DNA of 21,865 nt, from IMG/VR virus record IMGVR_UViG_3300017727_000195, positions 1 through 21,865 of that record; one strand, given 5' to 3'. Under the pieces are notes generated by a model, which was given only the letters and a program-made list of their open reading frames with translations, was not told where the DNA came from and did not search any database. Source of the DNA: a virus. The translations under genes and the position numbers were made by a program. Each line of letters starts with the position of its first letter. Positions within the stretch are counted from its first letter, which is position 1. Shown here in pieces: positions 1 to 21,865 of the stretch.

Positions 1-807
1 ACTATTATAAAACTCTGCATCAGGATCAATAGCATCAGACATTATTCCACCAGATGAAGCATACTTATCGTCATCTACATCTTTATATGTTTTAGCTTTC
101 TTGAGTGGTATCTCTATTCTAGCGCCAGCATCTATAACATTTTTATCTTCTATTTCACTATTGAGATCCAGTATAGCTTTAACAGTTGTGTTATTATCTT
201 TAGCAATCTGAGACAGAGTATCACCATCTTTTATCAAGTAAGATTTTGAAGGTGTAGCATTGCCAAGAGCTAATCCTCTAGGTATACCTGTTAGTACATC
301 TGGTGTAGTAGGCTGATCCATTGTAGGGGGAGCCATCAAACCTTTACGAGGATCTTGCATGTCAGGGTCTTGTGTTTGAGTAACCTGTGGGGCAGCTTCT
401 CTTGTATCATCATAGCCACCAAACTGATATGTGTCTGCACTAAATTGATCAAACGGATCTTTGATACCTTGAGTTGTTACCTCAGTTACAGCAGGTATCT
501 TAAACATAGATCTTTCATACACAGGTAAAGCAAATACGTTCTGTTCTGGTTCATCTACTTTAGCACCAGCATCCATAAAGTATTCATAGATCTTTCTATC
601 AAGACTCTTTTCTTCTTTAGGCTTATCAGAACGTGAGCCTAAACCTTTAGTAATTACTTGAGGAACGTCATCATAAGTACTACCACTGGCAAAAGAAGTC
701 TTAGCTTTCTTAGCTTTCTTAGCTTCTTGCTGTTGTGTTACACCACTAGCTCTACCGAATGCTTCTTGTTGAGCTTTAAATGTTTGTCGAGGATCATATG
801 TTGCCAT
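1..807 (-). CDS. LysM-domain virion protein, 3' end cut by the window edge
   Basis: 269 codons are visible from ATG at 807 to the window edge with no stop, so the C-terminus is missing. The N-terminal 190 residues are polar and low in complexity, with a lysine-alanine run (KKAKKAKKAK type) near residues 30-36. Residues 190-234 form a LysM module: YLIKDGDTLSQIAKDNN, then TVKAILDLN, then VIDAGARIEIP. LysM domains bind the N-acetylglucosamine of peptidoglycan. The gene follows the 712-aa internal-virion-like gene after 13 bp, with only a weak AGGT Shine-Dalgarno. The natural reading is a protein that contacts or locally opens the cell wall during genome delivery; the missing C-terminus might hold a hydrolase domain. 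No catalytic motif is visible in the part present, so lytic activity is inference. The LysM call is firm, the role is not. Confidence 0.85.
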   Translation of the reverse strand, partial: MATYDPRQTFKAQQEAFGRASGVTQQQEAKKAKKAKTSFASGSTYDDVPQVITKGLGSRSDKPKEEKSLDRKIYEYFMDAGAKVDEPEQNVFALPVYERSMFKIPAVTEVTTQGIKDPFDQFSADTYQFGGYDDTREAAPQVTQTQDPDMQDPRKGLMAPPTMDQPTTPDVLTGIPRGLALGNATPSKSYLIKDGDTLSQIAKDNNTTVKAILDLNSEIEDKNVIDAGARIEIPLKKAKTYKDVDDDKYASSGGIMSDAIDPDAEFYNS

Positions 808-820
808 TGTTATACCTATA

Positions 821-2959
821 TTAAGAGAATATTGAGTCCATTGCACGATCAGTAAGTTTACCAACAAAGGAACCAAGACCAGATTCAAATGCATCAGCAC
901 CCTTTCCGTCTGCACTAATTTTAGCTGTGGCTACTGCGTTATCTCTATCTGCTGCACTTTCTGCAGAACGCCAAGCCCAACCCATGATGTCTCTTTCCTG
1001 TTGTATTACAGCATCATATGCTGCTCTTGTCAAGTTATTAGAAGCCATAGCTGCATCACGATTAGCTTGATTGTTGGCTGCATTATCTGCAGTAGTTATT
1101 GACTGCGCCCATTGTGCATTAGCCTGTGCTATGACTAAATGATTGTTTGCATTAAACTGATCACGTGCATTCTGTAGTCCTGTATTGTATTGTCCTAATG
1201 CATTAGCTTCCCCTGCATTGAAACGTGCCATACCATTCATTTGTTCTGTGTTAAACTGTGACGCAGTGTTAGCCAAGTTAGCGAAGTACTGATCAGTCTG
1301 CATCTGTGATGTAGCATTGAATTGTTTAGATGCATTGTTAGCTGCAGTATCTGTGAACAAAGAGTTTACTATTGACTGTGACTGAAACATAGCATTCATC
1401 TGTTCATTGTCTAAGTTTGCTATGTCCATTTGTAAAAAGGTTTTAGCATTCTGTACTTGTGCTTGCTGTCTGTTGTTTAGATTAGCCATGTCCATTTGTG
1501 ATAGTGTGGCTGCATCAGACATAACTTTAGCTTGTCTGTTATTTAGGTTAGCTAGGTCAACAGACTGTGCCATACGTGCATTCTCTAACGCTACCTGTTG
1601 ATCTGCACTAAAGTTAATGTTAGCTATCTCAGATATACGTGCAGCATTCTTTACTTTAGTTTGAAAGTTCTGATCAAACTCCTGCCCCATAAACTTAGCA
1701 CGTTGTTCTGCTTTAGCCATAGCCATTTGCTGCTTGTTAGCTGCGTCCATTTGCGCTATAGGTAGTGCTGACTCCATAGCAGCCTGTACTACAGCCATAC
1801 CTGCCATACTTGATGATGACAATCCACGTGCAGCCATTGCTGCGTTAGCTGCTCTCATAGCTCCTGCAGCCCAAGGAGGTGTGTCCCCACCTTCAAAGTC
1901 CTGCATAAGATCACCAAGTTCATCCTGTACAGAAGCTGCTTTAGATAGGGCTAGAGTTTCTTCTACTTGCTTTTGGTCTACTGCACTACCATCTATCATT
2001 TGTTCTGGTGTTACCTGTAGATCAGCAGGAGCGTCTACCGTCTGTGCCTGTCCTAGTTGAGCAGCATCAAGATTTAAAGCAGATGCTTGCATAGGATCTT
2101 GTTGTGCAGGATCTATTAATGCTTGTTGACTAACGTTACCCTGTGCAGCTTGAGCTTGTCTAGCAGCATCTCCTACTGACGCAGCAGATTGTGAAGCATC
2201 CATAGTCTGAGCCTGTAAAGAATCAGGCATGTCTACTTGCTGCCCTGAGTCAGCTACCGTTTGTTGTGCTTGTTGTACCGCACCAAGTTGACCTGTACCT
2301 TCAGCTATGCCTGTACTATCTCCTTGATTAGCCTGTACATTAGCTGTTGTTACTGGCTTAGTAGGGTCTGTTTGTATTTGAGATGTAGCCTGACTACCTG
2401 TTAACACGTTAGGTTTTGCAGTATCTGCTGTAAGACTAGTAAATTCATTTTGTGGGCCGTCTGTGTTGTCAGTAGTAGTTTGAGTAGTACCCTGGGTCAT
2501 AGATGCCTTTTGTGCATTCATGGCATTTACTTGTTGGCTATTACTATTGTCTGCAGGTCTACCAAATATATCTTGACCTAATCTTTCTGCTGCTGCTTTA
2601 CCTCTATCTGCTACAGGTATTGTATGTAAAGGATCAGAAGCAGAAGTACCAAACTGATTTCCACCACTATTATTCCTTGCTACAGCAGCCTCATGTGTCT
2701 TTGCTGTCAGGTCTTTATATTCCTGTGTACCAAAAGCAGGACCACCAAACAACGCACCTAAAAAAGCTCCATGAACAGGCTTACCTTCCACCATCTGCAT
2801 AGCTGCCATAGTATACTTACCCATCTTTGCAGCAGCAGCAGGGCTTGCAGCTAAGAACTTATTGATAGACTTTTCATCAGTAGGTCCATCATAACCTAAA
2901 GCTGGTAGTATCTTCTTTGTTAGTGTATCAGGTTTAAACCCTGCAAATTTATTAGCCAT
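821..2959 (-). CDS. Large helical internal-virion-like (ejection) protein with hendecad repeats
   Basis: 712 aa. Residues 1-95 are a semi-ordered head with an alanine- and glycine-rich segment. Residues 95-330 are a low-complexity Q/A/T/D-rich stretch. From about 335 the chain is helical. Residues 445-532 are four 22-residue repeats centred on (M/V)D(L/M/I)ANLNNRQ, and residues 545-654 are ten consecutive 11-residue units such as SQFNTEQMNGM, ARFNAGEANAL and GQYNTGLQNAR. A tryptophan-bearing segment (GWAWRSAESAADRDNA) follows. Period 11 is the signature of a long straight helix or right-handed coiled coil. There is no cysteine and no membrane segment. ATG at 2959 is preceded by AGGGAAA. Lying after the tail genes and before a LysM protein, it fits an internal core or ejection protein (the role of T7 gp15/gp16). 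That function is inference from position and composition; a tape-measure-like role is the alternative. Confidence 0.8.
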   Translation of the reverse strand: MANKFAGFKPDTLTKKILPALGYDGPTDEKSINKFLAASPAAAAKMGKYTMAAMQMVEGKPVHGAFLGALFGGPAFGTQEYKDLTAKTHEAAVARNNSGGNQFGTSASDPLHTIPVADRGKAAAERLGQDIFGRPADNSNSQQVNAMNAQKASMTQGTTQTTTDNTDGPQNEFTSLTADTAKPNVLTGSQATSQIQTDPTKPVTTANVQANQGDSTGIAEGTGQLGAVQQAQQTVADSGQQVDMPDSLQAQTMDASQSAASVGDAARQAQAAQGNVSQQALIDPAQQDPMQASALNLDAAQLGQAQTVDAPADLQVTPEQMIDGSAVDQKQVEETLALSKAASVQDELGDLMQDFEGGDTPPWAAGAMRAANAAMAARGLSSSSMAGMAVVQAAMESALPIAQMDAANKQQMAMAKAEQRAKFMGQEFDQNFQTKVKNAARISEIANINFSADQQVALENARMAQSVDLANLNNRQAKVMSDAATLSQMDMANLNNRQQAQVQNAKTFLQMDIANLDNEQMNAMFQSQSIVNSLFTDTAANNASKQFNATSQMQTDQYFANLANTASQFNTEQMNGMARFNAGEANALGQYNTGLQNARDQFNANNHLVIAQANAQWAQSITTADNAANNQANRDAAMASNNLTRAAYDAVIQQERDIMGWAWRSAESAADRDNAVATAKISADGKGADAFESGLGSFVGKLTDRAMDSIFS
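998..1627 (-). repeat. 22- and 11-residue (66/33-bp) helical repeats inside the 712-aa gene
   Basis: Residues 445-532 read as four 22-residue units with the shared core ANLNNRQ (first copy diverged to IANINFSADQ). After a 12-residue stutter, residues 545-654 read as ten 11-residue units beginning KQFNATSQMQT and ending TRAAYDAVIQQ, with no insertion or deletion. Apolar residues recur at fixed positions in each unit. The later units are weaker in sequence but keep the spacing. Confidence 0.75.
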
Positions 2960-2962
2960 ATT

Positions 2963-3205
2963 TTATTTCCCTATTTGCATCCACAATGATGCGGCAATGA
3001 ATGTTATTACTGCTACTGTTGACATCTTAACCATAGTTGACCACACACCTTTACGTGTATCACGCCATGCTTCTAGTAAGTTACGCATCTCAGTTATATC
3101 TTTACGAGCATCATCATCATGTAGTCCTACCTCACGCAATGCTGCTTTAGCCCCACGTTGGGCTGCACGATCTAGTATATCTTCTAGCTCTTCTGGTGTA
3201 AGCAT
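2963..3205 (-). CDS. Small single-transmembrane phage protein (holin-like candidate)
   Basis: 80 aa. Residues 1-55 are charged and helical (LTPEELEDILDRAAQRGAKAALREVGL, then DDDARKDITEMRNLLEAWRDTRK). Residues 57-77 form one hydrophobic segment (MVKMSTVAVITFIAASLWM) followed by a short QIGK tail. The AWRDTRK plus C-terminal helix arrangement matches a small family common in marine and alphaproteobacterial phages, possibly the one named DUF6127, from memory. It lies 3 bp upstream of the internal-virion-like gene, and its own last codons (IGK, AGGGAAA) supply that gene's Shine-Dalgarno. One membrane span, small size and position allow a holin or a membrane-anchored virion component. No lysin sits beside it, so holin is only one option. 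Confidence 0.8.
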   Translation of the reverse strand: MLTPEELEDILDRAAQRGAKAALREVGLHDDDARKDITEMRNLLEAWRDTRKGVWSTMVKMSTVAVITFIAASLWMQIGK

Positions 3206-3621: not shown

Positions 3622-4568
3622 TATGTTGATCCGTAAATTGTACCATTATTATTTAGTGTTATTGATGTTCCTGTTATAGCTGCTCCGCCAGATCCTGCTG
3701 TAGCTGCTGATAATCCATTTCCAGAAGGCACACTTCCACCTGAAGCACCCCATCCACCACCTGCTCCTCCAGTATTAAAGTTAACTGTACTACCACTTGA
3801 TGTAGAGGAAGAAACTCCTCCTGCACCACCAGCATTTCCTGCACTCCCTCCAAAGCCTATGTTTGGTGTTGGACTAGCAAAGGGAGACACATATTGACCT
3901 CCGCTTCCTGGTAGCTTTCTTCCTCCACCAGAACCTCCCCCTGCTCCTCCTGCCCCAGCGTTAGTTGCTCCTGATCCAGTACCATTTTGATCTATACCAC
4001 CACCAGGTTGACCTGCTCCAAATTCTCCTGATCCACCTGTACCACCACCTGCACCGCCACCTCCTCCAGATATATTACCAGTAGAAATTTCTATTGCAGC
4101 AGCGCCACCACCCCCTCCTCCTGCAATGTATGCACCAGAACTATTAGTAATAGTTACACCAGTAGAGGTTACAGATATAGCAGGACCACCATTGAAACCA
4201 CTAGCAGGGGAACCAGAAGAACCTGCTCCCCCTTTACCTATAATGTAGCCATTGTTTACAACAGTACAAGGTATGTTTATTGTTAGTGCAGCAGTAGTAG
4301 TGTCATCAGACCAAAGCCATCCTCCTGAAGGTATAGTAAAAGTACCACCACCACTTATATAGTCTGATACTCTAATTTCTTGTAGTGCAAATAGTCCATT
4401 AGCTTTACTTGCACCATACCACTCAGAGAAAGACATCTGTGAACCAGATCCTTTAAATATTAAGTCTCTTATTTGAGATTCATTTATAGATGCTAAAGTA
4501 CCTGTACTGCCACCACCCTCAACATGTATATCATTTAGACTTATTTGACCACTACTCTGGAGAGTCAC
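3621..4568 (-). CDS. Glycine-rich tail fibre tip/adhesin
   Basis: 315 aa. Start is GTG at 4568 in a TAGTG overlap with the upstream fibre gene; the next residues TLQSSGQISLNDIHVE match the usual N-terminus of this phage fibre class, which supports the GTG. Residues 1-55 are the attachment module ending in MSFSEWYGAS. Residues 65-110 are a beta-strand region ending in NNGYIIGKGGAG. Residues 110-275 carry long runs of G interrupted by loops (YIAGGGGGGAA, GGGGGAGGGTGG, GGAGGGSGGG). Such runs can fold as polyglycine-II sandwiches, as in the gp38 adhesin of Salmonella phage S16, with the inserted loops contacting the receptor. Likely role: receptor binding at the tip of the S74 fibre encoded immediately upstream. 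Fold and partner are inference. Confidence 0.8.
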   Translation of the reverse strand: MTLQSSGQISLNDIHVEGGGSTGTLASINESQIRDLIFKGSGSQMSFSEWYGASKANGLFALQEIRVSDYISGGGTFTIPSGGWLWSDDTTTAALTINIPCTVVNNGYIIGKGGAGSSGSPASGFNGGPAISVTSTGVTITNSSGAYIAGGGGGGAAAIEISTGNISGGGGGAGGGTGGSGEFGAGQPGGGIDQNGTGSGATNAGAGGAGGGSGGGRKLPGSGGQYVSPFASPTPNIGFGGSAGNAGGAGGVSSSTSSGSTVNFNTGGAGGGWGASGGSVPSGNGLSAATAGSGGAAITGTSITLNNNGTIYGST

Positions 4569-6319
4569 TACTCACACTCACACTTTTTACATTTACACTG
4601 TTCTATTTCTGCTTTAAGTTCTTTTATTGCTTCTATAAGTAGGCCATGAAGCTGATCATAATTTACTGTTTTGTATTCTACTCCCTGTTCGCCTGTATGA
4701 AACGCTAATGACTTACTCTCTACAGCAGTCGGTAATACTTTTTCTACTTCCTGTGCAATTACACCTGCAACTTCTCTGCCATCTCTGTTATTGTATTTAA
4801 ATGTATACCCATTAATTTTATCTACTTTATCTAATGCATTATCTATTTTTTGTATATTACTCTTTAATCTTTTATCAGAAGGTACGGTTGTTGAGTATGC
4901 AGTGACATTTCCATTTACAGAAAGATTCCCACTGTTGTCTAGTCTCATATCCTCGTTACCACCTACATTAAAAGACATACGTGAGCTACCATCATTGAAA
5001 TGTATATGCTCATCATTATTTCCAACATATACATCTGTAGCAGCAGATAGTCTTTGATCACCTGCTACACTAAATGCTGTACCGTTTAAAGATAATCCAG
5101 TACTAGCTGTGTAAGTTGTATCAGTATCTGTTGAAGCAAAGTCTAACTTGTTAGTAGCATCATTATATGTTACAGATATGTTAGTTTCTGTATTACCAGA
5201 TACCATTGCTCCTATAATATCTTGCACACCTTCGTCTTTTAAAGATACAGCACCTCCTGATACAGTAAAATCTGTAGTGTTAAAGGAGGCAATACCTTTA
5301 TTTGTTGTGGTAGCATCCTCTCCAGAGATTGAACCAGCACTTATATCTATACCCTCACCTGCAGAGATAGCTGCTTGCGCTCTAGCATTGGTAAAGTATA
5401 GATTAGTCCCTTCTGATAAGTCTCCTGTGTCATGATTAGATAAACTAGATACAGTTCCTGTGACATTGCCTGTGACATTACCACTTAAATTACCTGTTAC
5501 GTTTCCTGTTACCGCACCTGTTACAGGGCCAGTATGTGTACCTGCAGTATCGCCTGTGACATTTCCTGTGACATCACCAGTTAAGTCTCCAGTAACATTA
5601 CCTGTAACATTACCTGTGACATCACCAGTTAAATTCCCAGTAACATCACCAGTTATACCAGCACTAGAACTTAAAGTTGTGAAGCTACCAGCAGCGGCAA
5701 CAGTAGCGCCTATAGTTACACCATCAATAGTACCCCCATTAATGTCTGCTGTATCTGCTACTAAGCTATCTATGTTCGCTATACCATCAATGTATAAATC
5801 TTTCCATTGCTTGCTATTAGCACCTAAATCATATAGATTAGATTGATCTGGTACTATATTACTGTGTATATCTGCCCCAAAAGAAACACTGTCAGTAGAA
5901 GCATCACCGAATGTTAGGTTACCATTGATAACAGCGTTTCCTGTAACACTAAGATTGCCAGCAACATCTAGATCTGCAGAAGCTGTTACATTGCCTGTAA
6001 AGGTAGAAGTCTCATCAACAGTAAGTATATCTGTTCTTAGTGTTCCATCAAAGAAGCCATCCTTCCACTCAATCGTAGATGTACCAAAGTCATAGGTGTC
6101 ATCTGTCTTAGGACGTACAACACTAGAGGTAACTACAAGGTCATTGGCTGGTCCCATGCTTTCTATGGGTGGTCCGTTACCTGCTGTACCATCATGACTG
6201 TGTCCAGTAGTACCGTTGAACGCTGCCTCAATAGCATTGTATTCTGAGTTAAAGTCTGCAGCATCTATAACTGCACCTGTAACTATATTAGCTGTTGCTT
6301 GTCTTGTATAACCTGCCAT
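4568..6319 (-). CDS. Tail fibre with C-terminal peptidase S74 intramolecular chaperone
   Basis: 583 aa. Residues 1-50 are a virion-anchoring module (IDAADFNSEYNAIEAAFNG, then GHSHDGTAGNG) typical of marine podovirus fibres. Two YDFG/YDLG...WKDGFFDG/WKDLYIDG modules follow near residues 76-95 and 163-180. Residues 221-290 are a four-residue (G-x-V-T) repeat. Residues 481-583 form the S74 chaperone: SDKRLKSNI, AGVIAQEVEKVLP, then the helix LHGLLIEAIKELKAEIEQ. In endosialidase-type S74 domains the chaperone folds the trimer and is then released by cleavage before the Ser, with a Ser-Lys dyad five residues apart; here Ser481 and Lys486 are both present. The tail ends in an odd cysteine cluster, CKCKKCECE. 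Gene order, directly after the nozzle gene, supports a main tail fibre. Confidence 0.92.
   Translation of the reverse strand: MAGYTRQATANIVTGAVIDAADFNSEYNAIEAAFNGTTGHSHDGTAGNGPPIESMGPANDLVVTSSVVRPKTDDTYDFGTSTIEWKDGFFDGTLRTDILTVDETSTFTGNVTASADLDVAGNLSVTGNAVINGNLTFGDASTDSVSFGADIHSNIVPDQSNLYDLGANSKQWKDLYIDGIANIDSLVADTADINGGTIDGVTIGATVAAAGSFTTLSSSAGITGDVTGNLTGDVTGNVTGNVTGDLTGDVTGNVTGDTAGTHTGPVTGAVTGNVTGNLSGNVTGNVTGTVSSLSNHDTGDLSEGTNLYFTNARAQAAISAGEGIDISAGSISGEDATTTNKGIASFNTTDFTVSGGAVSLKDEGVQDIIGAMVSGNTETNISVTYNDATNKLDFASTDTDTTYTASTGLSLNGTAFSVAGDQRLSAATDVYVGNNDEHIHFNDGSSRMSFNVGGNEDMRLDNSGNLSVNGNVTAYSTTVPSDKRLKSNIQKIDNALDKVDKINGYTFKYNNRDGREVAGVIAQEVEKVLPTAVESKSLAFHTGEQGVEYKTVNYDQLHGLLIEAIKELKAEIEQCKCKKCECE
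4571..4879 (-). other. Peptidase S74 domain with predicted self-cleavage point
   Basis: Residues 481-583 of the fibre. The predicted cut is before Ser481 in PSDKRLKSNI, with Lys486 as partner. The last nine residues carry four cysteines (CKCKKCECE), which would lie in the released fragment. Confidence 0.85.
5453..5659 (-). repeat. 12-bp tandem repeat encoding (GNVT/GDVT)n
   Basis: About 17 units of four residues (GDVT, GNLT, GNVT, GPVT and similar) occupy residues 221-290 of the S74 fibre. On the + strand the DNA reads as variants of acctgtgacatt in tandem. Such repeats form extended beta structure in phage fibre shafts, and copy number may vary between relatives by slippage. Confidence 0.85.
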
Positions 6320-6321
6320 AA

Positions 6322-7941
6322 TTATTGCCTATCATTTTCTCTGTATTGTAATACTGCTGTGTCTAATGTAAATGGTGGATTTGTATCGTTACTTGTTATT
6401 CTCATAGCAACTGTGTGAAACGAACCTATTAAGTTCTCATTGTATATTCTCTTTACCTTACTGCCAAACTTAGCAGCATTTGTACCTGTACCGCCATACA
6501 AGGAGGTAGCTGCTCCATATACAAAAATACCACCACCTCCAGACAGAGATCCTATTTCAATTTCATTTGGTTGTAGTATCCTAGTATCGTCACCTGAGTC
6601 GAGGTTAAATAGTAACCTAAACTTTAAACTCATTTGGCCTGTAGGATCTGCATATAAACTTAACTTGTATGCTGTCTTCCTTTTCTCTGAATCTGTAATT
6701 GGCATATATGGTGTCTCTAGTATAGTCTCTATGTTATCACCATCAAATGCATTAGTTTTCTCTAGCTCATAAACATAACCATCTTCATTGGCAAACATAA
6801 TAGCTTCGGCTGTTCCAGCATAAATACTATCTGCTATATAAGCTTTGATTCCTTTTGTAGAGGACCACTCAATACCACCTGCACCTTGAGCCTGAAACTT
6901 TGTAGCTACTAAACCCTGTGCAACTTCATCATCTATAGATTCTACGTATGCAAATATTCTGTACTGACCCTTTTCTCTAAGTATAAGAGAAGAGTAGATA
7001 GGAGTAGATCTTAGAAAATCATCTGAATCTTTATTTATTTTATCAGATGCAACATCTAAGCCAAAGTCACCTATACGATCTGTAGCACTCAATAACCTAA
7101 TACCATCAGGGGACAAGTACATAATGTCACCACCAAATTCTTGTATGGTGTCTGCGTTTATACAACCGATCTTATTTGTAATTGGTGTTATCTGAAAATC
7201 AGAAGATGTACTACCTGTTAATCTCTTTATACTATCATTGGTAAATATAATTAGCTGATCACGGAACACAACCAGACCAGTCACATCGTTACCAACAAAC
7301 AAGCTACCAGCACCAGCGCCTGTAGAAAAGTTATCCACTGAGTTGGGTGCTGTAAAATATATCTGGCTACCCTTTGCGTAAAAAGTTGTTTCTTTAAATA
7401 CAACAACTAATTCTGCACCTTGAACGTCTGTATTTATGTTAGGACTAGATGCAGTAAGAAATGACATACTATTGCCATTTGTGTTATATATGCCTGGATA
7501 ATCCTGTCCATCAACAAATACAACCTGATCATCACCAGAAAAGTTAAACATAGCTTTCTTAGCTTTGCCGCCACCTGTGTCTGCAGTAGTAGCTATGTGT
7601 GTCCAAGTAGTACCTGTACCAAAATAATAAGCAGTATGATTTATATCCCCTGCTGATAACGTACCTATTGCATCAATAGCAGCTTGATTAACTTTACGTG
7701 CAACTACAACACGTCCTCCTGATACAACATGCATAGCTTCAATTTTACCATAACCAGGAACTTGTGTAGTGCTAAATTTTTCATAGCCTCTTATCTTAGT
7801 ATAACCACCCTGTCTGTCTGCCTCCATATTCTGTAATATAGTAGCAGAACCAATAGCATTTAAACCCTGCTGTAAGGGTGACATGTTAGAGATTAAACCA
7901 CCTTTAAACTCTACAGGAAAAGTATTCCATTGTGTTGGCAT
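6322..7941 (-). CDS. Tail nozzle/hub beta-propeller protein (T7 gp12 / P22 gp10-like)
   Basis: 539 aa. The N-terminus (FKGGLISNMSPLQQG, ATILQNMEADRQGGYTKIRGYEKF) is the usual opening of this family, which describes itself as nozzle, hub or packaged-DNA stabilisation protein. Beta-propeller-type strands follow: MFNFSGDDQVVFVDGQDYPGIY (131-152), ELVVVFKETTFYAKGSQIYFTAPN (177-200), VTGLVVFRDQLIIFTNDSIKRLTG (220-243) and GDIMYLSPDGIRLLSATDRIG (271-291). The phrase GL.VFRD.L.IF....I.RLTG is the strongest family signature. In the tail it would sit below the adaptor and close the DNA channel. ATG at 7941 overlaps the adaptor stop as TAATG. The adaptor-then-nozzle order is the same as in T7 (11, 12) and P22 (4, 10). 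Whether it is closer to the T7 or the P22 form cannot be decided here. Confidence 0.85.
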   Translation of the reverse strand: MPTQWNTFPVEFKGGLISNMSPLQQGLNAIGSATILQNMEADRQGGYTKIRGYEKFSTTQVPGYGKIEAMHVVSGGRVVVARKVNQAAIDAIGTLSAGDINHTAYYFGTGTTWTHIATTADTGGGKAKKAMFNFSGDDQVVFVDGQDYPGIYNTNGNSMSFLTASSPNINTDVQGAELVVVFKETTFYAKGSQIYFTAPNSVDNFSTGAGAGSLFVGNDVTGLVVFRDQLIIFTNDSIKRLTGSTSSDFQITPITNKIGCINADTIQEFGGDIMYLSPDGIRLLSATDRIGDFGLDVASDKINKDSDDFLRSTPIYSSLILREKGQYRIFAYVESIDDEVAQGLVATKFQAQGAGGIEWSSTKGIKAYIADSIYAGTAEAIMFANEDGYVYELEKTNAFDGDNIETILETPYMPITDSEKRKTAYKLSLYADPTGQMSLKFRLLFNLDSGDDTRILQPNEIEIGSLSGGGGIFVYGAATSLYGGTGTNAAKFGSKVKRIYNENLIGSFHTVAMRITSNDTNPPFTLDTAVLQYRENDRQ

Positions 7942-8630
7942 TAGAAATGTACTCTTGTGTCACGTATGTAATCCATACGATTTATATTTAAGCTTCTTAA
8001 GTACTTTATACCATCTTGAAACTTTCTATTAGATATGTCTGCCATCTGTGTATCTCCACGAAACTGGTAAACATAATACATAGCCCCATCAATAATACAA
8101 AACCTATACTGTTCTGGAAGTGACGGTACGTCTGATGCAATCTCTAAGTCATACCCTGTTCTATAGTATTCGTATACTAACTCATATGCTTTGTCTGGAT
8201 TAGGGTAGCATATAAGTTCTCTGCTAGGTGTCCTTACAATATGAGTAGGTGTGGATCTATTACTTGTGCCTGTATTGTATTCTGAGTCTGCATAATTTTC
8301 TATCCACTCTTCATAAGACATATTCTTTAACTTAATAGTTCCTATATTAAGAGTATCATCTCTTTTAATACGAAAGCTATTCATGTCTATGGTCTTGGCA
8401 TCATTAGGGTAGGAGTACCTAACAGTACCTGGTGCAAGAAATTCACTTTCCTCTACATGGTTCCAGGGCCATTGAAACTCTTCTTGATTAATATGTCTGA
8501 CTGCTGCATTAACAGCATCTTTAGCAAAAGAAAAGTACCCTGTTGCTGTAGGAAAAGTATCAAGTGTTAACTCCACCTCATTAAGTCTGTTGTTAACATC
8601 ATTAGTTAAACCTATAAAATCATATGCCAT
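7941..8630 (-). CDS. Tail adaptor/gatekeeper protein (T7 gp11 / P22 gp4-like)
   Basis: 229 aa, close to the usual length of podovirus adaptors. Family features: a helical N-terminus with FAKDAVNAAVRHINQ (35-49), the aromatic patch FQWPWNHVE (52-60), a beta-rich centre (GTVRYSYPNDAKTIDMNSFRI), the phrase LICYPNPDKAYELVYEYYRTG, and a C-terminal helix (FQDGIKYLRSLNINRMDYIRD). Such proteins form a ring under the portal and connect it to the nozzle. The next gene is the nozzle protein, joined by a TAATG overlap, which supports the call. Start at 8630 lies 1 bp after the upstream stop (TAATATG), with an AAGAGAAG Shine-Dalgarno inside that gene. Confidence 0.85.
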   Translation of the reverse strand: MAYDFIGLTNDVNNRLNEVELTLDTFPTATGYFSFAKDAVNAAVRHINQEEFQWPWNHVEESEFLAPGTVRYSYPNDAKTIDMNSFRIKRDDTLNIGTIKLKNMSYEEWIENYADSEYNTGTSNRSTPTHIVRTPSRELICYPNPDKAYELVYEYYRTGYDLEIASDVPSLPEQYRFCIIDGAMYYVYQFRGDTQMADISNRKFQDGIKYLRSLNINRMDYIRDTRVHF

Positions 8631-11092: not shown

Positions 11093-11111
11093 TCATGATG
11101 CTGCTCCTGAA
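11093..11111 (-). repeat. Cassette 3' boundary repeat, copy 1
   Basis: TTCAGGAGCAGCATCATGA at the end of the 749-aa propeller gene; identical over 19 bases to 13339-13357. It encodes SGAAS plus stop and carries AGGAG seven bases before an ATG that no longer starts a gene. Confidence 0.9.
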
Positions 11112-13342
11112 ACAGACTCTATATATTGACCCTCTGTTAGCATGTCCCCATAATCAGTTGCGTTCGCTGCGGTTTGAACTGTAACCTTATCTATAACGCC
11201 ACATACATTGCTAGGTACGTTCACTGGTCTTCCACCTACTATAGTAGCATATGTTCCGTCTGATGCAACCCCACACCTAGATCGTGCCACAGTTAGATCC
11301 CCAAAGTCTGCTGAGTTTGATGCTGTTTGAGTTGTTACATAACTTATAACATTTGTTCGAGTATTTCCTGCTGCTGCTGTGTCACCACCGCATATTAAAC
11401 CCCTTGTAGCATCAGAACACGCTCCATGTTGCTTTCCGTTGAGGTGATCTCCAAAATCTGTAGAGTTACCTAGAGTCTGAGTCGTTACATACTCCATAAT
11501 TGCTGTAGCTACATTAAAATTTCCATCATTAAAAACACTGCGAGTTGCGTCATTAAAAGCAGAACCCTCATCTATAAGTCCAGTAGATAGGTCACCAAAG
11601 TCTGTTCCGTTACCTGTAGTAGCTATAGTTATGTACTCTATAACATCAATGTTTAGCTGCGCATTGCTGAACCCAGCAGCGATAAGCCCTCTTGTACCAT
11701 CTGAAGTTGCCATCACTTTGTTTTTTACTGCTGTCAGATCACCAAAATCTGTGGCATTGCCAGTGGTAGATGTAGTAATGTATTGCATGACATTAGTCTC
11801 AGATCCTGCGGTATTCGTCATCCCTCCCGAAAATACACCTCTACTACCATTTCCACATGCTGCACCTCTATACGTAGAACCAAGCGTATCACCAAAATCT
11901 GTGGCATTCCCTGCAGTTGTAATGCTTTGATACTCTATTTTATTACTCCAACCTGAATCGTAGCCAATGGAGTAAACGTGCCTGTCACCGCCCCAAGCTA
12001 TACTTGAAGTAGAACCACCAGAGCCACCAGAGCTAGATGACCCATAACTAAACTCAGCTACACCATAAGAGCCAGATAATACATCTGAACCAGAGGCTGA
12101 AGGATAGAGTTCTTGTAAGCCTATATAGACCTTTTGTTCACTTTCATTAACATAGAAAGACCTAATTCTTTCAGTCAATTTCCAGTTAGGGCTTACTGCA
12201 TCCTCTCCTAACCTTATAGTTTTAACATGTGTCATGTTACTTTTGCTAATATCCCAAGCAACACTAGTTTCAAAAACAAATAGATCACAAGCTGTAACAG
12301 TGTTGCTTTGTGCGTCTGTATAGTCTTTCCTACCATCAACCCATATTTTAGTACCGTCATCAGAGAACCAAAAGTCTACATATTGAGCAGCACCACTGGT
12401 GTCATATCTGGTAGGATCTATATTATTTTCAATCTCATACCCAAAGTCAAAACAAGATAAAGCTCCACTACTAGTAACGTCTATAGTGCTTGGGTCATAG
12501 GCAGTTGTAACGTTAAAGATTAACATCTTTCCACCAACACCTCCAGTATTTATTTCATACCAAACAAATTTATTACCACTATCTATCCACTTAGATCTGT
12601 AATCATAACCAGAACTAGTAAAATTATTACGATGGGAGGTGTCTTTTATTCCGTTCCATATATTGTTAAGTGTAGTAGTAGTAAAAGTTCTATCTACTGC
12701 TGGCGTTGTGCTACTAGCTGAAAGAATATCGTATGCAGTATTTAAATTCCAACCTCTTAGTCTATGATAACTAGCGGTATGAACCGTACTTAATATTGCT
12801 GTTCCGTTTGAATTAAAATCTAAAGATGCAGCATCCCACATGATATCAAAAGGTTCATCATTAGTAGCGCCAGATAGGTTAGAAAAACTTTTATTTTGAT
12901 CTATAGTAGCTGTACTGATATCCCAAGCAGTAGACAAATCATAATATACAGCATCTCTTTGATGACCCAATACATGCAGTTTTGTACCATCTGCACTAAA
13001 TCTAATATTCTGTGTCAATACATTATTAGATGTTCCAGAAACAGGAACTGTTGCTAGGTATGAGTCATAATCAAAACTGAAAGTTGTAGGATCAGCAGTA
13101 GTACTACTAGCAGTACCTATTACAGTCTGCCACACTCCGTTAGCATATACTTTGTACTCACTAGCAGTTTCGCTCCACCATGTATCACCATTACTAGGGC
13201 TGCTTGGCTCTGTGTCACTCTCTGTGTGAATGAAACCTGAGATACCACTGTCAGCACCTGCAATGTTAAACCCATTGGTGAAGCTAGGAGACTGTGTCCC
13301 TGTTGCACCTGTTATCTTTGTTAATCCTTCAACCTTACTCAT
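11093..13342 (-). CDS. Double beta-propeller tail appendage protein
   Basis: 749 aa. Residues 1-78 form a fibre head with the WW module (DTEPSSPSNGDTWWSETASEYKVYANGVW written as EPSSPSNGDTWW... then YANGVW). Residues 110-435 hold about five degenerate repeats built on FSxDGTKxxV...STAWDIS (FSADGTKLHVLG at 115, FSDDGTKIWVDG at 326, AWDIS at 139 and 362). A GGSGGS linker follows at 439-444, then residues 448-749 carry six DFGD-type repeats (xxYITIxTxGNATDFGDL, then GTRG and GG). The two repeat classes look like two successive propellers. The six-repeat half is shared with two other proteins here. ATG at 13342 overlaps the upstream stop (ATGA), with AGGAG seven nt away. Probably a receptor-binding or appendage protein; binding partner unknown. 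Confidence 0.82.
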   Translation of the reverse strand: MSKVEGLTKITGATGTQSPSFTNGFNIAGADSGISGFIHTESDTEPSSPSNGDTWWSETASEYKVYANGVWQTVIGTASSTTADPTTFSFDYDSYLATVPVSGTSNNVLTQNIRFSADGTKLHVLGHQRDAVYYDLSTAWDISTATIDQNKSFSNLSGATNDEPFDIMWDAASLDFNSNGTAILSTVHTASYHRLRGWNLNTAYDILSASSTTPAVDRTFTTTTLNNIWNGIKDTSHRNNFTSSGYDYRSKWIDSGNKFVWYEINTGGVGGKMLIFNVTTAYDPSTIDVTSSGALSCFDFGYEIENNIDPTRYDTSGAAQYVDFWFSDDGTKIWVDGRKDYTDAQSNTVTACDLFVFETSVAWDISKSNMTHVKTIRLGEDAVSPNWKLTERIRSFYVNESEQKVYIGLQELYPSASGSDVLSGSYGVAEFSYGSSSSGGSGGSTSSIAWGGDRHVYSIGYDSGWSNKIEYQSITTAGNATDFGDTLGSTYRGAACGNGSRGVFSGGMTNTAGSETNVMQYITTSTTGNATDFGDLTAVKNKVMATSDGTRGLIAAGFSNAQLNIDVIEYITIATTGNGTDFGDLSTGLIDEGSAFNDATRSVFNDGNFNVATAIMEYVTTQTLGNSTDFGDHLNGKQHGACSDATRGLICGGDTAAAGNTRTNVISYVTTQTASNSADFGDLTVARSRCGVASDGTYATIVGGRPVNVPSNVCGVIDKVTVQTAANATDYGDMLTEGQYIESVSGAAS
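12014..12033 (-). repeat. Cassette 5' linker repeat, partial copy C
   Basis: 20 bases shared with the two longer copies, in the 749-aa gene between its first propeller-like region and its six-repeat region. Confidence 0.75.
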
Positions 13343-13357
13343 GATGCTGCTCCTGAA
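13339..13357 (-). repeat. Cassette 3' boundary repeat, copy 2
   Basis: Identical 19 bases to 11093-11111, at the end of the 381-aa propeller gene. Here the AGGAG and ATGA are in use as ribosome site and start of the 749-aa gene. Confidence 0.9.
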
Positions 13358-14484
13358 GCTGCGCCGCCATAATATCTACCCACTGTCAGGTCACCAAAAT
13401 CTGTAGCGTTACCTGGAGTTGATATGTTTATATAATCAATTACATTACTTATAGGACTAACACCACCTGCTATAGTCATACGTGTGCCATTTGAATTACA
13501 CATTGTACTACCTCTAGTTACTGATAAATCGCCAAAATCTGCAGAGTTACCAGGTGTATCTTGTGTTATATATTCTAAAGTATTCAGTTCTGTTGCGTTA
13601 TTACCAGATGACACATATGTTCTTGATAAATGCATTACTATTCTTGTAGCATCTCCTGCGCCATCAGGTTCATTTGAATCAACTGATAGATCTCCAAAAT
13701 CAGTAGCACTATCCAATGTTTGAACTGTTACATATTCTATATTACTAAAACCAGCAGTAATCATACTACCAAATCCAAAATTTCTTGTTGGTCCTGATGC
13801 GGCCCCAGTTTCACGAGTATCGTATGTTGCATTACCAAAGTCAGTTGCATTACCTGTAGTTGCTATGGTTATGTACTCAATTCCATTACTATTGTTTCTA
13901 CCATGCCAGATGAGTCCTCTAGTTGAGTCAGATGAACTTGCTGTATCCATAGTAATGTTATTTAAATCACCAAAATCTACAGAATTACCAGGGGTAGCAA
14001 AGGTTATGTAATGTAATTCATTTGTTTGACTACCAGCAAGCGCACCACCATGAAATACTCCCCTAGACCCATTGGAAGCACCACCACTCATAAACCTAGT
14101 TGTGCCTGAAGTATAGTCACCAAAATCTGTAGCATTGCCTGGTGTTGATATATCTATATAATCAATTACATTACTATAGCTACCAGTAGACGGTCTTCCA
14201 CACCAATGAACTCCTCTATCACCGTACATATTAAGACTAACACTACCACCAGAGCCACCAGAGCCACCAGTACCTAACTCTCTAAACTGTTGATCTATAT
14301 ATCTGTAGAGTTTATCATTAGCACTGTCCCACCAAAGATCTCCTGTTTCAGCATCAACAGGCTCTGTTTCACTAGAGGTGTAGGCTTGTTCTACATCAAC
14401 ACCACCTACCTTAAACTTGTTAGGCATGTCGATAGCACTAGTAGCAGTCTCATGTTCTATTGTATTTACTTTTAAAGTACTCAT
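13339..14484 (-). CDS. Six-repeat DFGD beta-propeller tail appendage protein
   Basis: 381 aa. Residues 1-70 are the N-terminal fibre module (MSTLKVNTIEHET, DMPNKFKVGGVDVEQAYTS, GDLWWDSANDKLYRYIDQQF), common in phage fibres and thought to hold the protein on the particle. A GTGGSGGSGGS linker spans 71-81. Residues 86-381 contain six repeats of about 49 residues, each with (I/V)(E/D)YI(T/D)I.T.GNATDFGD, then a GTRG turn and a GG strand. Six repeats with split first and last strands are what a closed six-bladed propeller would show. It is the simplest of the three paralogues. A TAGGGA Shine-Dalgarno that begins in the stop of the upstream gene precedes ATG at 14484. Confidence 0.82.
   Translation of the reverse strand: MSTLKVNTIEHETATSAIDMPNKFKVGGVDVEQAYTSSETEPVDAETGDLWWDSANDKLYRYIDQQFRELGTGGSGGSGGSVSLNMYGDRGVHWCGRPSTGSYSNVIDYIDISTPGNATDFGDYTSGTTRFMSGGASNGSRGVFHGGALAGSQTNELHYITFATPGNSVDFGDLNNITMDTASSSDSTRGLIWHGRNNSNGIEYITIATTGNATDFGNATYDTRETGAASGPTRNFGFGSMITAGFSNIEYVTVQTLDSATDFGDLSVDSNEPDGAGDATRIVMHLSRTYVSSGNNATELNTLEYITQDTPGNSADFGDLSVTRGSTMCNSNGTRMTIAGGVSPISNVIDYINISTPGNATDFGDLTVGRYYGGAASGAAS
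14243..14269 (-). repeat. Cassette 5' linker repeat, copy B
   Basis: 27 bases identical to 20998-21024, in the 381-aa gene between its fibre head and its propeller. Confidence 0.85.
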
Positions 14485-17097: not shown

Positions 17098-20073
17098 TTA
17101 TCCGAATACTATTGCCATTGCTATAGCTTTACCTGTTGAAAACGTAGGTACTGTTGCTGTACCACATCCAATTACATGACCATTAGAATCTATTGTAACA
17201 TCTTGAATAAACGTAGTTCCTGAATTGTTTGATGAACCTTGATTTGAAATAATAGGGTGCGCTGTCAAAAACCCTGCACCATTGGTAAGTTGATTTGTGT
17301 TCGTTACATTAGTTGCACCAGTTGCAATTCCGTCTAGTTTAGTTTTAAGTGTACTAGTAAAGTTCTTTTGAGTCAAGCCTCCATCACCTACTGAGTACTG
17401 AGTGTTAGCATCATTTACCCAAGCATAATCACTACCATTCCATGATAGTATTTGATTAGTACCTGCTGAAGATTGATTGAGATGTGAGTTTACATCACTA
17501 TTTGCATACCCTGCAGGTACAGCAGCCCAAGTCATACCTCCTGTGTTACCTGATTGTGCTTGTAAAAAGTAACCGTTACTAGGACTGTTGCTTACTTTTA
17601 AGTTGGCCTCATCTACAACGTTGTCTACTATCACAGTTGCGCCATCAGCAGTACTTGTTACTTCCCCTGAGTGATTGGGGTGTGTATAGTTATTAGCACT
17701 GGAAGCTATACCATTTAATTTAGTTTGCAAAGCATCTGTAAAGGCGTTGGTATCACTATTAGCTTCGTAAGCAGTCTTTACTTCAGCATCTGTTTGATCA
17801 GCAGTCGCCCCTGTTTCAACTCCATCTAGCTTAGTCTTATCTGCAGCAGACATAAAACCATCTGCTGAAGTTGTGGAATTATCATGGTCATGGCTGTTGT
17901 CAGCTACGGTAGCAGTAATAGTTATATCAGCAGAGCCATTAAAAGATGCAGACCCACTAAGATCTCCACCCAGTCCTATACTTCTAGAGGAAGCTAATGT
18001 AGTTGCTGTAGTAGCATTACCACTAACATTACCTGTGACGTTACCAGTTAAGTTACCTTCTACAGTATCTAGTTTAAGCAATCCAAAAGAGGTAGATGCA
18101 TCCGCTAAATTTATTGCACCTGATGGTGTAGGATCATACTCATCTAATAATGTCCACTTATCTTCTGATACATCATAAAAGAAACCCATGTGGGTATAAC
18201 CCACGCCTGATGCACCTGTGTTCCTATTAGAGAAGAAACCTGTATCTACTAGTACTGGACTTGCTACACCTGTCCATACATCATTTAATGTATGCCCTGT
18301 AGTTGCACCAAACTTTACAGATATGTTATCTGCACTGTGTATCATTTGCTCGTTACCAGTGATAGCGTTGCCAGTAGATATGGTAGTACTAAAGTTGTCT
18401 ACACTTACAGCAAAAGTGTCTGGTGTACCTACACTATCAATCTTTACATAGTAATTAGTAGATGCAGTACCTGTAAAGTGACCAGCAAAGAATGCATCAT
18501 CTAAGCCTGAACCACTAAAAGTAGTATTAGCATCACCAATAGCATCCCCTTCATTTGCACGATAGAATGGCGCACCTGCAGTTACATCTGATGTACTTGT
18601 TGATGTAGTAGTACCAAGCACAGATAAGTTACCACCCACAATAAGATCATCACCTATGTAGGTATCAGTTCTTACTCTAAATGAATTTACAGAATGGTTT
18701 TGTTGATTTATTAGTAATATACCATTAGTAGAATCAGAATTAACAACCCACCCTAAACACATAGGAAAGTTAGGATACACAGGAGAAGCATTCTGTACAG
18801 CACCTGGTGTTAATCCCACAAAGAAGTTTGTACCTGCTGAAAGACCACTAGTGTCTACGCCATGTAACTGCCCTGCAATAATACAATAACCATAAGTATT
18901 GTTAGGTATGTCTGCTGCTGCCAAACCTTGGGCATTGTATGCGCTAACATCTGTAGCATCAGCTAGTCCTACAGTAGGTACATCAAGAGTACCTGCTGTG
19001 TAGTTACCTGAGAAGTACAGAGGTTTACCTTTAGCTATAGTAGATCCTGTACTGTTATACACACGTTGATGTTCTTCAAGACCTACTTCATGTACTACAT
19101 TCTGTGTATCTGAATAATAACTTAAAGTTTTAGTACCAGTATCATACCATACTCTTCCTTCAGAGTAGGATGGTGCTGACGCTTGACTTGTCATATCAAT
19201 GTGAGTGCCTACATTAACTTCGCCTGTGGCTGTAGTATTAACAAAGCTTGGGCTATCTGTTGTAGCTAATCCCTGATTTATAGCCTTTACTGCAGTCTCA
19301 TCTGTTAGCTCACTATCCATAACAGCACCTGCTGCTGCGACATTAGTAGTATCCGTAACATCAGCGCTGGTTTCTATTCCAGTTAGTTTAGTCTTCTCTG
19401 CATCTGTGTAAGCATTTGTGTCAGAGTTATTCTCGTAGGCTGTCTTTATCTCTGCGTCTGTTTGATCTGCTGTGGCACTTGTTTCTATGCCACTTAACTT
19501 AGTTTGCTCTGCGTCAGTAAACGCATTAGTGTCTGCATTATTTTCGTATGCAGTTTTAATCTCAGAGTCTGTCTGGTCTGCTGTGGCACTAGCTTCGATA
19601 GCATTTAGCTTAGTATGGTCTGCATCAGTAAATACATTACTATCTGAAGCGGCCTCTACTGCTGCTCTGATCTCCGCATCTGTTTGATCTGCTGTAGCAC
19701 TAGTTTCAATACCGTTTAGCTTTGTTTGTAGTGCATCAGTAAAGGCGTTGGTGTCTGCGTTATTCTCATAAGCAGTTTTAATCTCAGCGTCTGTTTGATC
19801 TCCAGTCGCTCCAGACTCAAGTCCAGCTAGTTTAGTTTCTTCTGCTGTTGTGTAGGATGCTGTAGTATTATCTAAAACAGTAGAGTGGGCCTGTACGTCT
19901 GTACCTATAGCTACACCTAGCGTAGTCCTAGCATCACTATCTGTAGTATCATCAAGAACTGTAGAAGCGTAGGATGTAATAGTAGTAGTAGCAGGTATGT
20001 CTAAGTTGGCTAAGTCTTCTAAGTCATCGGATCTAGCAAGTTCACCTAATAGTCTATTCTTTGATTTTGTCAT
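17098..20073 (-). CDS. Large repeat-rich tail fibre protein
   Basis: 991 aa, the longest gene here. Residues 1-79 are a fibre head (LARSDDLEDLANLD, DSDARTTLGVAIGTDVQAH). Residues 80-227 are four perfect-length 37-residue repeats beginning TKLxGIE, with a fifth partial copy from 228. A WxDTGTKTLSYYSD module lies near 305-315, then a globular part (YGYCIIAGQLHGV, PNFPMCLGWVVNSD) and a beta part with DTFAVSVDN and EDKWTLLDEYDP. A GNLTGNVTGNVSGNATTATTL shaft leads to a second single copy of the 37-residue unit, and the end is a typical fibre tail (TNQLTNGAGFLT ... TGKAIAMAIVFG). No S74 chaperone is present. ATG at 20073 overlaps the upstream stop (ATGA), AGGAG seven nt away. Long lateral fibre is the likely role. 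Confidence 0.85.
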   Translation of the reverse strand: MTKSKNRLLGELARSDDLEDLANLDIPATTTITSYASTVLDDTTDSDARTTLGVAIGTDVQAHSTVLDNTTASYTTAEETKLAGLESGATGDQTDAEIKTAYENNADTNAFTDALQTKLNGIETSATADQTDAEIRAAVEAASDSNVFTDADHTKLNAIEASATADQTDSEIKTAYENNADTNAFTDAEQTKLSGIETSATADQTDAEIKTAYENNSDTNAYTDAEKTKLTGIETSADVTDTTNVAAAGAVMDSELTDETAVKAINQGLATTDSPSFVNTTATGEVNVGTHIDMTSQASAPSYSEGRVWYDTGTKTLSYYSDTQNVVHEVGLEEHQRVYNSTGSTIAKGKPLYFSGNYTAGTLDVPTVGLADATDVSAYNAQGLAAADIPNNTYGYCIIAGQLHGVDTSGLSAGTNFFVGLTPGAVQNASPVYPNFPMCLGWVVNSDSTNGILLINQQNHSVNSFRVRTDTYIGDDLIVGGNLSVLGTTTSTSTSDVTAGAPFYRANEGDAIGDANTTFSGSGLDDAFFAGHFTGTASTNYYVKIDSVGTPDTFAVSVDNFSTTISTGNAITGNEQMIHSADNISVKFGATTGHTLNDVWTGVASPVLVDTGFFSNRNTGASGVGYTHMGFFYDVSEDKWTLLDEYDPTPSGAINLADASTSFGLLKLDTVEGNLTGNVTGNVSGNATTATTLASSRSIGLGGDLSGSASFNGSADITITATVADNSHDHDNSTTSADGFMSAADKTKLDGVETGATADQTDAEVKTAYEANSDTNAFTDALQTKLNGIASSANNYTHPNHSGEVTSTADGATVIVDNVVDEANLKVSNSPSNGYFLQAQSGNTGGMTWAAVPAGYANSDVNSHLNQSSAGTNQILSWNGSDYAWVNDANTQYSVGDGGLTQKNFTSTLKTKLDGIATGATNVTNTNQLTNGAGFLTAHPIISNQGSSNNSGTTFIQDVTIDSNGHVIGCGTATVPTFSTGKAIAMAIVFG
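17720..17845 (-). repeat. Remote single copy of the 37-residue fibre repeat
   Basis: About 600 residues after the tandem array the same unit returns (TKLDGVETGATADQTDAEVK, then AYEANSDTNAFTDALQ), followed by the start of another (TKLNGIASSAN). Boundaries are approximate. Confidence 0.75.
19393..19836 (-). repeat. Four tandem 111-bp repeats in the large fibre gene
   Basis: Residues 80-116, 117-153, 154-190 and 191-227, each 37 residues: TKL(N/A/S)(G/A)(I/L)E..AT.DQTD.EI(K/R).A.E...D.N.(F/Y)TDA. A fifth copy starts at 228 and diverges after TKLTGIETSAD. Unit length is constant, with no indels; DNA similarity between units is high. Confidence 0.88.
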
Positions 20074-20089
20074 GCTGCTGCTCCTGATG
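20070..20089 (-). repeat. Cassette 3' boundary repeat, copy 3 (diverged)
   Basis: The same arrangement at the end of the 487-aa propeller gene (CAGGAGCAGCAGCATGA, encoding SGAAA plus stop), with AGGAG seven bases before the ATG of the 991-aa fibre. Confidence 0.8.
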
Positions 20090-21533: not shown

Positions 21534-21865
21534 TATAATACTACCCATCTAGCATTTACAGGAACTGTAACTGTTGCACCAGTGTTTATTGTAATAGGTC
21601 CGACAGATACAGCATTTCTATTTGTTGATAATGTATAACTTGTTGTAACAGTAGTTTGGTTCTCATTAAATACTTGGTCAGTTCCTCCACCAGTAGCGCC
21701 ACCGCCACCTCCGCTTCCAGAGACATCACCAAAACTTAAAGTACCACTACCATTAGTTATAAGTGCTTGACCGTTTGTACCATCAGATCCAGGTAATGTA
21801 AAGGTATTAATAAAAGTACTTAAATTAGTATTACCTATACCATACTCAACTATCTCTACTTTGTC
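21533..21865 (-). CDS. Tail fibre protein, C-terminal part (5' end beyond the window)
   Basis: 110 residues are readable from the window edge to TAA at 21533-21535. The visible part reads TFTLPGSDGTNGQALITNGS, GTLSFGDVSGSGGGGGATGGG, then TDQVFNENQTTVTTSYTLST and NAVSVGPITINTGATVTVP. LPxxDGTNGQxLxTNGxGxLSF followed by a glycine hinge and DQVFxENxxTVTTxYT...GPxTINxGxTVTVP is a very common C-terminal end of phage tail fibres, forming a small beta cap. Its TAA overlaps the next ATG (TAATG). The length and N-terminal domains cannot be known from the window. Confidence 0.85.
   Translation of the reverse strand, partial: DKVEIVEYGIGNTNLSTFINTFTLPGSDGTNGQALITNGSGTLSFGDVSGSGGGGGATGGGTDQVFNENQTTVTTSYTLSTNRNAVSVGPITINTGATVTVPVNARWVVL

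Follow-up and report, generated by a model that had tools for sequence, protein, structure and literature searches.

A predicted helical 11-residue repeat that changes length almost only by whole units in a late protein of HMO-2011-type phages

The window analysed here, a 21,865-nucleotide stretch of viral DNA (IMG/VR record IMGVR_UViG_3300017727_000195), encodes a 712-residue protein in which residues 400-617 repeat with a period of 11 in a single register and whose relatives carry a rod of length fixed modulo 11 throughout the family. With one exception, the 11-residue unit (hendecad) is thus the unit of both structure and length change. Pfam and PHROG profiles gave zero matches to the 712-residue protein at E up to 1. 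The protein, its segments and the neighbouring genes considered here are located as follows.

821..2959, minus strand, rod protein, 712 aa, HMO-2011 phage1322_25 family
2789..2938, minus strand, N-terminal helical domain, residues 8-57, as modelled by AlphaFold2
1934..2746, minus strand, linker, residues 72-342, AlphaFold2 pLDDT mostly <50
1109..1762, minus strand, hendecad rod, residues 400-617, from the PIAQ anchor to the W617 anchor
998..1627, minus strand, stretch singled out by an earlier sequence-only reading, residues 445-654, z 8.3 at period 11
965..1108, minus strand, helical extension, residues 618-665, conserved, register traceable to about residue 644
827..892, minus strand, C-terminal glycine-containing segment, residues 690-711
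1..807, cut by the window edge, minus strand, LysM-domain protein adjoining the rod gene, LysM E 4.6e-10
2963..3205, minus strand, DUF6127 small membrane protein, immediately upstream of the rod gene, E 7.8e-24
6322..7941, minus strand, probable nozzle or tail-tube protein (by position), phrog_5107 and phrog_511
7941..8630, minus strand, SU10-type head-tail adaptor, PF24175, E 1.9e-16

Periodicity was scored as self-identity at a given lag against residue shuffles of the same stretch, expressed as z. At lag 11, z reached 10.9 for residues 400-660, 8.3 for 445-654, 7.0 for 545-654 and 6.0 for 445-532, and in the last of these lag 22 gave 7.1. Over residues 400-660 the elevated lags were 11, 22 and 33 alone; period 7 was not elevated, with z7 of at most 1.4 in the window protein. 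The sequence-only reading had placed the repeat correctly, at residues 445-654 of the ORF at 821-2959, and the repeat is real and longer than it reported: Asn occupies hendecad position 3 in 13 units within residues 400-660, with constant phase from 403 to about 644, so that one unbroken register of some 22 units runs through approximately 403-644. The 22-residue units it had described at 445-532 were confirmed, but not their separation from a second block at 545-654, because the Asn phase is kept across residues 533-544 and the two blocks form one array. Its ten units in 545-654 hold for the period, although the last three or four (residues 612-654) are weakly repetitive in the window protein; F/Y recurs each 11 residues through 545-605. 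A hydrophobicity peak had been expected at 11/3 and was not dominant. The highest peak lay at 2.75 (11/4) in residues 445-532 and 360-700, 2.2 (11/5) was also high, and the top peak of 545-654, at 3.68, was equalled in height in 385 of 500 shuffles. With main peaks at 11/4 and 11/5 instead of 11/3, the stretch is an 11-residue repeat but no plain amphipathic helix. Tandem Repeats Finder detected no 33- or 66-nt array in window positions 800-2000, which rules out a recent DNA tandem duplication there and indicates an old repeat, visible at the protein level only.

Rod length was measured between PIAQ (residue 400, before the rod) and W617 (rod end), using HMMs built from segments at or outside the rod ends and accepting matches above 15 bits. 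In a first set of 32 relatives, 29 had both anchors, and their distances all agreed modulo 11. Wider scans placed 260 of 261 ORFs in the same class among the matches listed; since named phages occur among these more than once (L034 is HMO-2011, L276 is CHOED), distinct rods were also counted, and 203 of 204 fell in that class among the matches listed. The 289 loci gathered include 80 kept by one scan from at least 600 matched stretches and 80 kept by another from 201; seven one-anchor ORFs and the window copy (L001, to which L002 is nearly identical) were omitted from the length count. Rods of 151, 162, 173, 184, 217, 228, 316, 338, 360 and 426 residues occur among the matches listed, and the exception, L124, has 317, with one additional residue immediately before W that is either a real stutter or a sequence error. 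The flanks served as control: among 192 closed ORFs, each with a distinct rod, there were 115 lengths ahead of the rod and 41 behind it, and each set was spread across the eleven classes modulo 11. It is the single register and this constancy, set against the free flanks, that identify 11 residues as the structural and length-change unit. A periodicity of 7, which the sequence-only reading had named as evidence against itself, was not seen, and period 11 scored highest (z 7.5 to 27.6) in every representative, one being taken per length value (11 values); a heptad coiled coil is thereby ruled out for the window protein and these representatives. On a tree of the downstream S protein, built from 52 loci with the rod unused, length class changed at least 12 times, one change being the lone exception. 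We propose that lengths come in whole units because a partial unit gained or lost would twist the register. The host as determinant of rod length is unsupported, Pelagibacter phages carrying rods of both 162 and 316 residues.

Proline was absent from all 43,894 residues of the 204 distinct rods among the matches listed, in contrast to the 18 prolines in residues 1-359 of the window protein. The same 204 rods contain 16.9% Ala, 16.2% Gln and 14.4% Asn, and three members taken singly have 29-35% Asn+Gln and 16% Ala. On the hendecad wheel, large hydrophobic residues favour positions 1, 2, 10 and partly 4, Asn/Gln positions 3, 8 and 9, and charges positions 7 and 11. The first harmonic of hydrophobicity in the family is 0.14, near zero, and since a single hydrophobic stripe is missing, neither an ordinary coiled coil nor the straight or right-handed one envisaged earlier is supported. 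The two faces of the wheel are weakly resolved (permutation P about 0.04); the pattern fits, without proving, a helix with packing contacts on two sides, such as one in a bundle or a tube wall. AlphaFold2, given alignment A2 (45 sequences hand-chosen from the loci), returned helix through most of residues 384-665, with pLDDT 70-82 for about 541-660; the model is poor overall (pLDDT 56.6, pTM 0.30), with the helix broken in the low-confidence segment 424-517. Of the 23 matches in a fold search with this low-confidence rod model, none reached E 0.001, and the 16-row family profile A1 matched no PDB sequence; a further alignment, A3, comprised 49 of 72 picked sequences. The absence of proline, the AlphaFold2 helix and the whole-hendecad length change together support the helical rod proposed from the sequence, and the predicted helix disfavours a beta-solenoid built of 22-residue units. 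Other helical 11-residue repeats are found in LEA proteins, type I antifreeze proteins and alpha-synuclein.

Outside the rod the protein is less uniform. AlphaFold2 pLDDT is 84-92 for residues 11-50 of the N-terminal domain and 74 for 51-60, and as an HMM this domain matched rod proteins only, among the ORFs of the loci collected at that stage. The linker that follows is probably flexible, judging from its low model confidence. In two relatives (L004 and L016) the first 64 residues are 89-91% identical to those of the window protein and the linker then differs; past the divergent linker the rod of L004 is alike to that of the window, and the L016 sequence is cut. Judged from these sequences, the pattern is one of mosaic linker exchange. 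The relatives in CRP-9, CRP-603 and CRP-1 (L023, L024 and L025) have 1021-1141 residues, with several hundred additional residues at the N terminus (best Pfam E about 0.03). C-termini elsewhere in the family carry Peptidase_S74 (three of the ten relatives scanned) or a CWVAREVYG tail.

Of 50,697 phage records searched by tblastn with the rod protein, 27 hold a relative: eleven Roseobacter CRP phages, four Pelagibacter phages, HMO-2011 (two records), Rhizobium and Sinorhizobium phages, Vibrio CHOED, two Aeromonas phages, Pseudoalteromonas Slicky01 and one uncultured podovirus. Two additional queries returned the same circle (26 and 27 records). The annotated feature at the match reads 'hypothetical protein' in 25 of the 27 and 'huntingtin' in another, and one record has none there. 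The source phage is of the HMO-2011 type, a group reported as dominant and widespread in the ocean (PMC9038755); in the portions available of the literature on these phages, no description was found of the route of their DNA through the envelope. The probable nozzle product at 6322..7941 matched phrog_5107 (labelled amidase) at E 1.8e-33 and also phrog_511 (internal virion protein). Elsewhere in the window, positions 4568-6319 encode a tail fibre that has TGNVTGN repeats and ends in Peptidase_S74, and 17098-20073 a large tail protein with recurring TADQTDAEIKTAYENNADTNAFTD units, a repeat protein in the operon of the rod gene. Three further proteins (11093-13342, 13339-14484 and 20070-21548) share recurring units that end GNATDFGDL; they are probably duplicated tail proteins, and the units resemble those of a propeller or receptor-binding repeat.

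Close to the end of the late block, the rod gene is preceded by tail genes and followed by a trio encoding proteins of about 175, 490 and 1150 residues, here called S, M and L. S, which has about 174 aa and carries PIPGxSLT early in its sequence, was found downstream of the rod at all 177 loci offering 3.5 kb or more of sequence among the matches listed, and M and L follow it where detected; detection relied on phmmer with few queries, and many stretches stop before M or L. In 17 phage records S has 164-198, M 365-935 and L 817-1893 aa. In two of the 17 the fetched stretch truncates L. Among the remaining 15, L is followed directly by an opposite-strand gene in 12; a single small gene on the same strand intervenes in CHOED and in MQM1, and several same-strand genes come after L in HTVC033P. 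None of S, M and L matched any family of known function, and the fold of S had no PDB match and one significant BFVD match, a 183-aa entry that, from its length only, we take to be the phiM6 S protein.

A LysM protein next in the operon had been read as a partner of the rod in cell-wall delivery, a claim that the comparison does not bear out. By phmmer, LysM was found in three of 177 loci among the matches listed, an undercount because the LysM gene of CRP-207 itself was missed by the start rule, and the slot holds LysM plus GH19-like (as in the CRP-207 counterpart), LysM plus PG_binding_1, Hydrolase_2, or nothing, which gives it the look of an exchangeable cell-wall hydrolase or lysis slot. 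LysM is thus not a conserved neighbour and is not supported as functional partner of the rod. The window's gene probably fills a cell-wall hydrolase or endolysin slot and may well belong to lysis; a lysozyme lies upstream in some relatives. The DUF6127 protein, also encoded in CRP-207 and CRP-1, appears holin-like. With DUF6127 upstream and the LysM gene possibly lytic, LysM alone lends no support to a conduit, and of the genome-entry conduit suggested earlier there remains a role made plausible by gene order.

We consider it about evenly balanced whether HMO-2011-type podophages carry the rod protein inside the particle and eject it, as a pilot protein forming a helical rod or conduit. Ejection operons are described as ordered small, medium, large (PMC8954989), an order that the sizes of S, M and L in the 17 records follow, and SU10 gp20-24, which the virion contains and the genome-release particle lacks (PMC9509320), are encoded after nozzle gp17 and needle gp18. 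The succession of rod, S, M and L after tail genes resembles these arrangements, and this likeness, together with the hendecads of phiX174 H, is why an ejected rod is favoured. The SU10-type adaptor of the window, a composition close to that of SU10 gp22, the predicted proline-free helix and the whole-hendecad lengths count on the same side. In such a mechanism, the small N-terminal helical domain and long flexible linker would lead into an uninterrupted alpha-helix of about 20-22 hendecads (residues 400-617 alone would span about 32 nm at 0.15 nm per residue). The protein would be packaged in the virion and leave it together with S, M and L; several copies side by side would make a rod or conduit along or through which DNA moves, with the Asn/Gln-rich surface facing DNA or water and the hydrophobic flanks packing on neighbours, as in the phiX174 H tube. 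Several observations count against ejection, namely the lack of a host-length correlation, the weak two-faced wheel beside the more one-sided hendecads of phiX174 H, the poor overall AlphaFold2 model with its broken helix, and the absence of a known-function family for S, M and L or of a solved structure like the S fold. Rods of 316-426 residues (47-64 nm) are moreover longer than the usual periplasm. For rod relatives, no virion proteomics was found in the open-licence literature, and outside the S74 cap neither sequence nor profile comparison tied the protein to the ejection proteins of T7, P22 or SU10.

The closest likeness in design is to phiX174 H, a virion protein used at DNA entry that forms a decameric alpha-helical tube and has Gln/Asn-rich hendecad helix repeats; 18 of its 23 inward positions are reported as Asn, Gln or Arg (PMC7354561). 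H has three hendecads and then heptads, whereas the rod has about 20 hendecads and no heptads; the hendecad wheel of H is more one-sided, and homology between the two is not shown. Beyond phiX174 H, no DNA-entry protein with hendecads was found in open-licence PubMed Central literature. SU10 gp21/gp22 and the Grimontviridae DNA injection proteins (phrog_4287) share with the rod a position before medium and large ejection-type genes and, in some members, an S74 cap; gp22 is also close in composition (Asn+Gln 35%, Ala 16%) but has a weak period 11 (z 3.0). Two of ten scanned relatives matched phrog_4287 (L030 at 2e-13, L033 at 5e-10), a match lost on removal of S74 (hhalign probability 0.3%). 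As the match came from the S74 end alone, homology to gp21/22 is not supported and family membership is not claimed. The T7 gp14/gp15/gp16 and P22 gp7/gp20/gp16 trios have the same order and size pattern as S, M and L, but show no sequence match and a best z11 of 0.1-3.5, and the rod is an additional, fourth gene; T7 and P22 are absent from the 27 tblastn-matched records, and the homology to T7 gp15/gp16 considered earlier was not found.

Among the alternatives, a trimeric tail needle or fibre shaft outside the particle, which we regard as unlikely, would suit the place of the rod gene in the tail block, where in P22 and SU10 the needle gene precedes the ejection genes, and the S74 chaperone ends of three of the ten relatives scanned. 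S74 is usual on trimeric fibres. Such ends nevertheless also cap Cronobacter A24 and Aeromonas BUCT695 DNA injection proteins, which are full-length phrog_4287 members, so that S74 as proof of a tail fibre is ruled out. The P22 needle has period 7 (z7 6.2, z11 1.3) as opposed to 11 only in the rod, a contrast weakened by the moderate z11 of 4.5 of SU10 needle gp18, and the rod lacks the single stripe that a trimeric coil would need.

Unlikely too, and ranked just behind, is a tape-measure-like ruler, a straight helix setting the length of an internal or tail element as in long-tailed phages. Tape measure proteins are reported to contain 11-residue repeats in variable copy number (PMC3271669) and to lie as an extended helix at 0.145 nm per residue (PMC5099701); they share with the rod the whole-unit copy changes, the aromatic markers (the F/Y recurrence through 545-605 counts here) and a proline-free repeat window, as in the TP901-1 protein, where z is 16.9 at period 11; the proteins compared are that of TP901-1 and those of Belcaid et al. 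2011. They belong, however, to long-tailed phages, whereas the rod relatives are described as podoviruses or podophages (HMO-2011, PMC6256558; MQM1, PMC10410586); the TP901-1 protein has one strong hydrophobic stripe (first harmonic 2.1-2.5) against the near-zero value of the rod, and there is no known object whose length follows the rod. Least likely is a virion-assembly or internal core protein (scaffold, DNA organiser) that stays in the capsid, which the Asn/Gln-rich helix, flexible linker, neighbours of unknown role and matches of two relatives to phrog_6121 'virion structural protein' would allow, but these phrog matches disappear once the S74 end is removed, and the gene order is closer to ejection blocks, with head genes well upstream.

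Returning to the ejected rod, a length that changes almost exclusively by entire repeats suggests a measured component in the DNA-delivery machinery. Repeats of 11 residues with whole-unit length change are already known in tape measures (PMC3271669), and no description of such a rod in podophages or HMO-2011-type phages was found in open-licence PubMed Central literature. A broader proposal, possible but doubtful, is that short-tailed phages carry a tape-measure-like ruler of their own: 14 to 39 hendecads in one unbroken helix, distinct from a classical coiled coil, would assemble into a long, amide-rich DNA-entry conduit or rod, with a length inherited in whole 11-residue quanta. A single late gene with length in 11-residue steps offers a handle, as natural rods span 23 to 64 nm and lend themselves to comparison, and the modulo-11 length test makes repeat register provable from metagenomes alone. 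If the rod is a conduit, the phiX174 tube, tape measures and podophage ejection proteins would share one helical-repeat principle.
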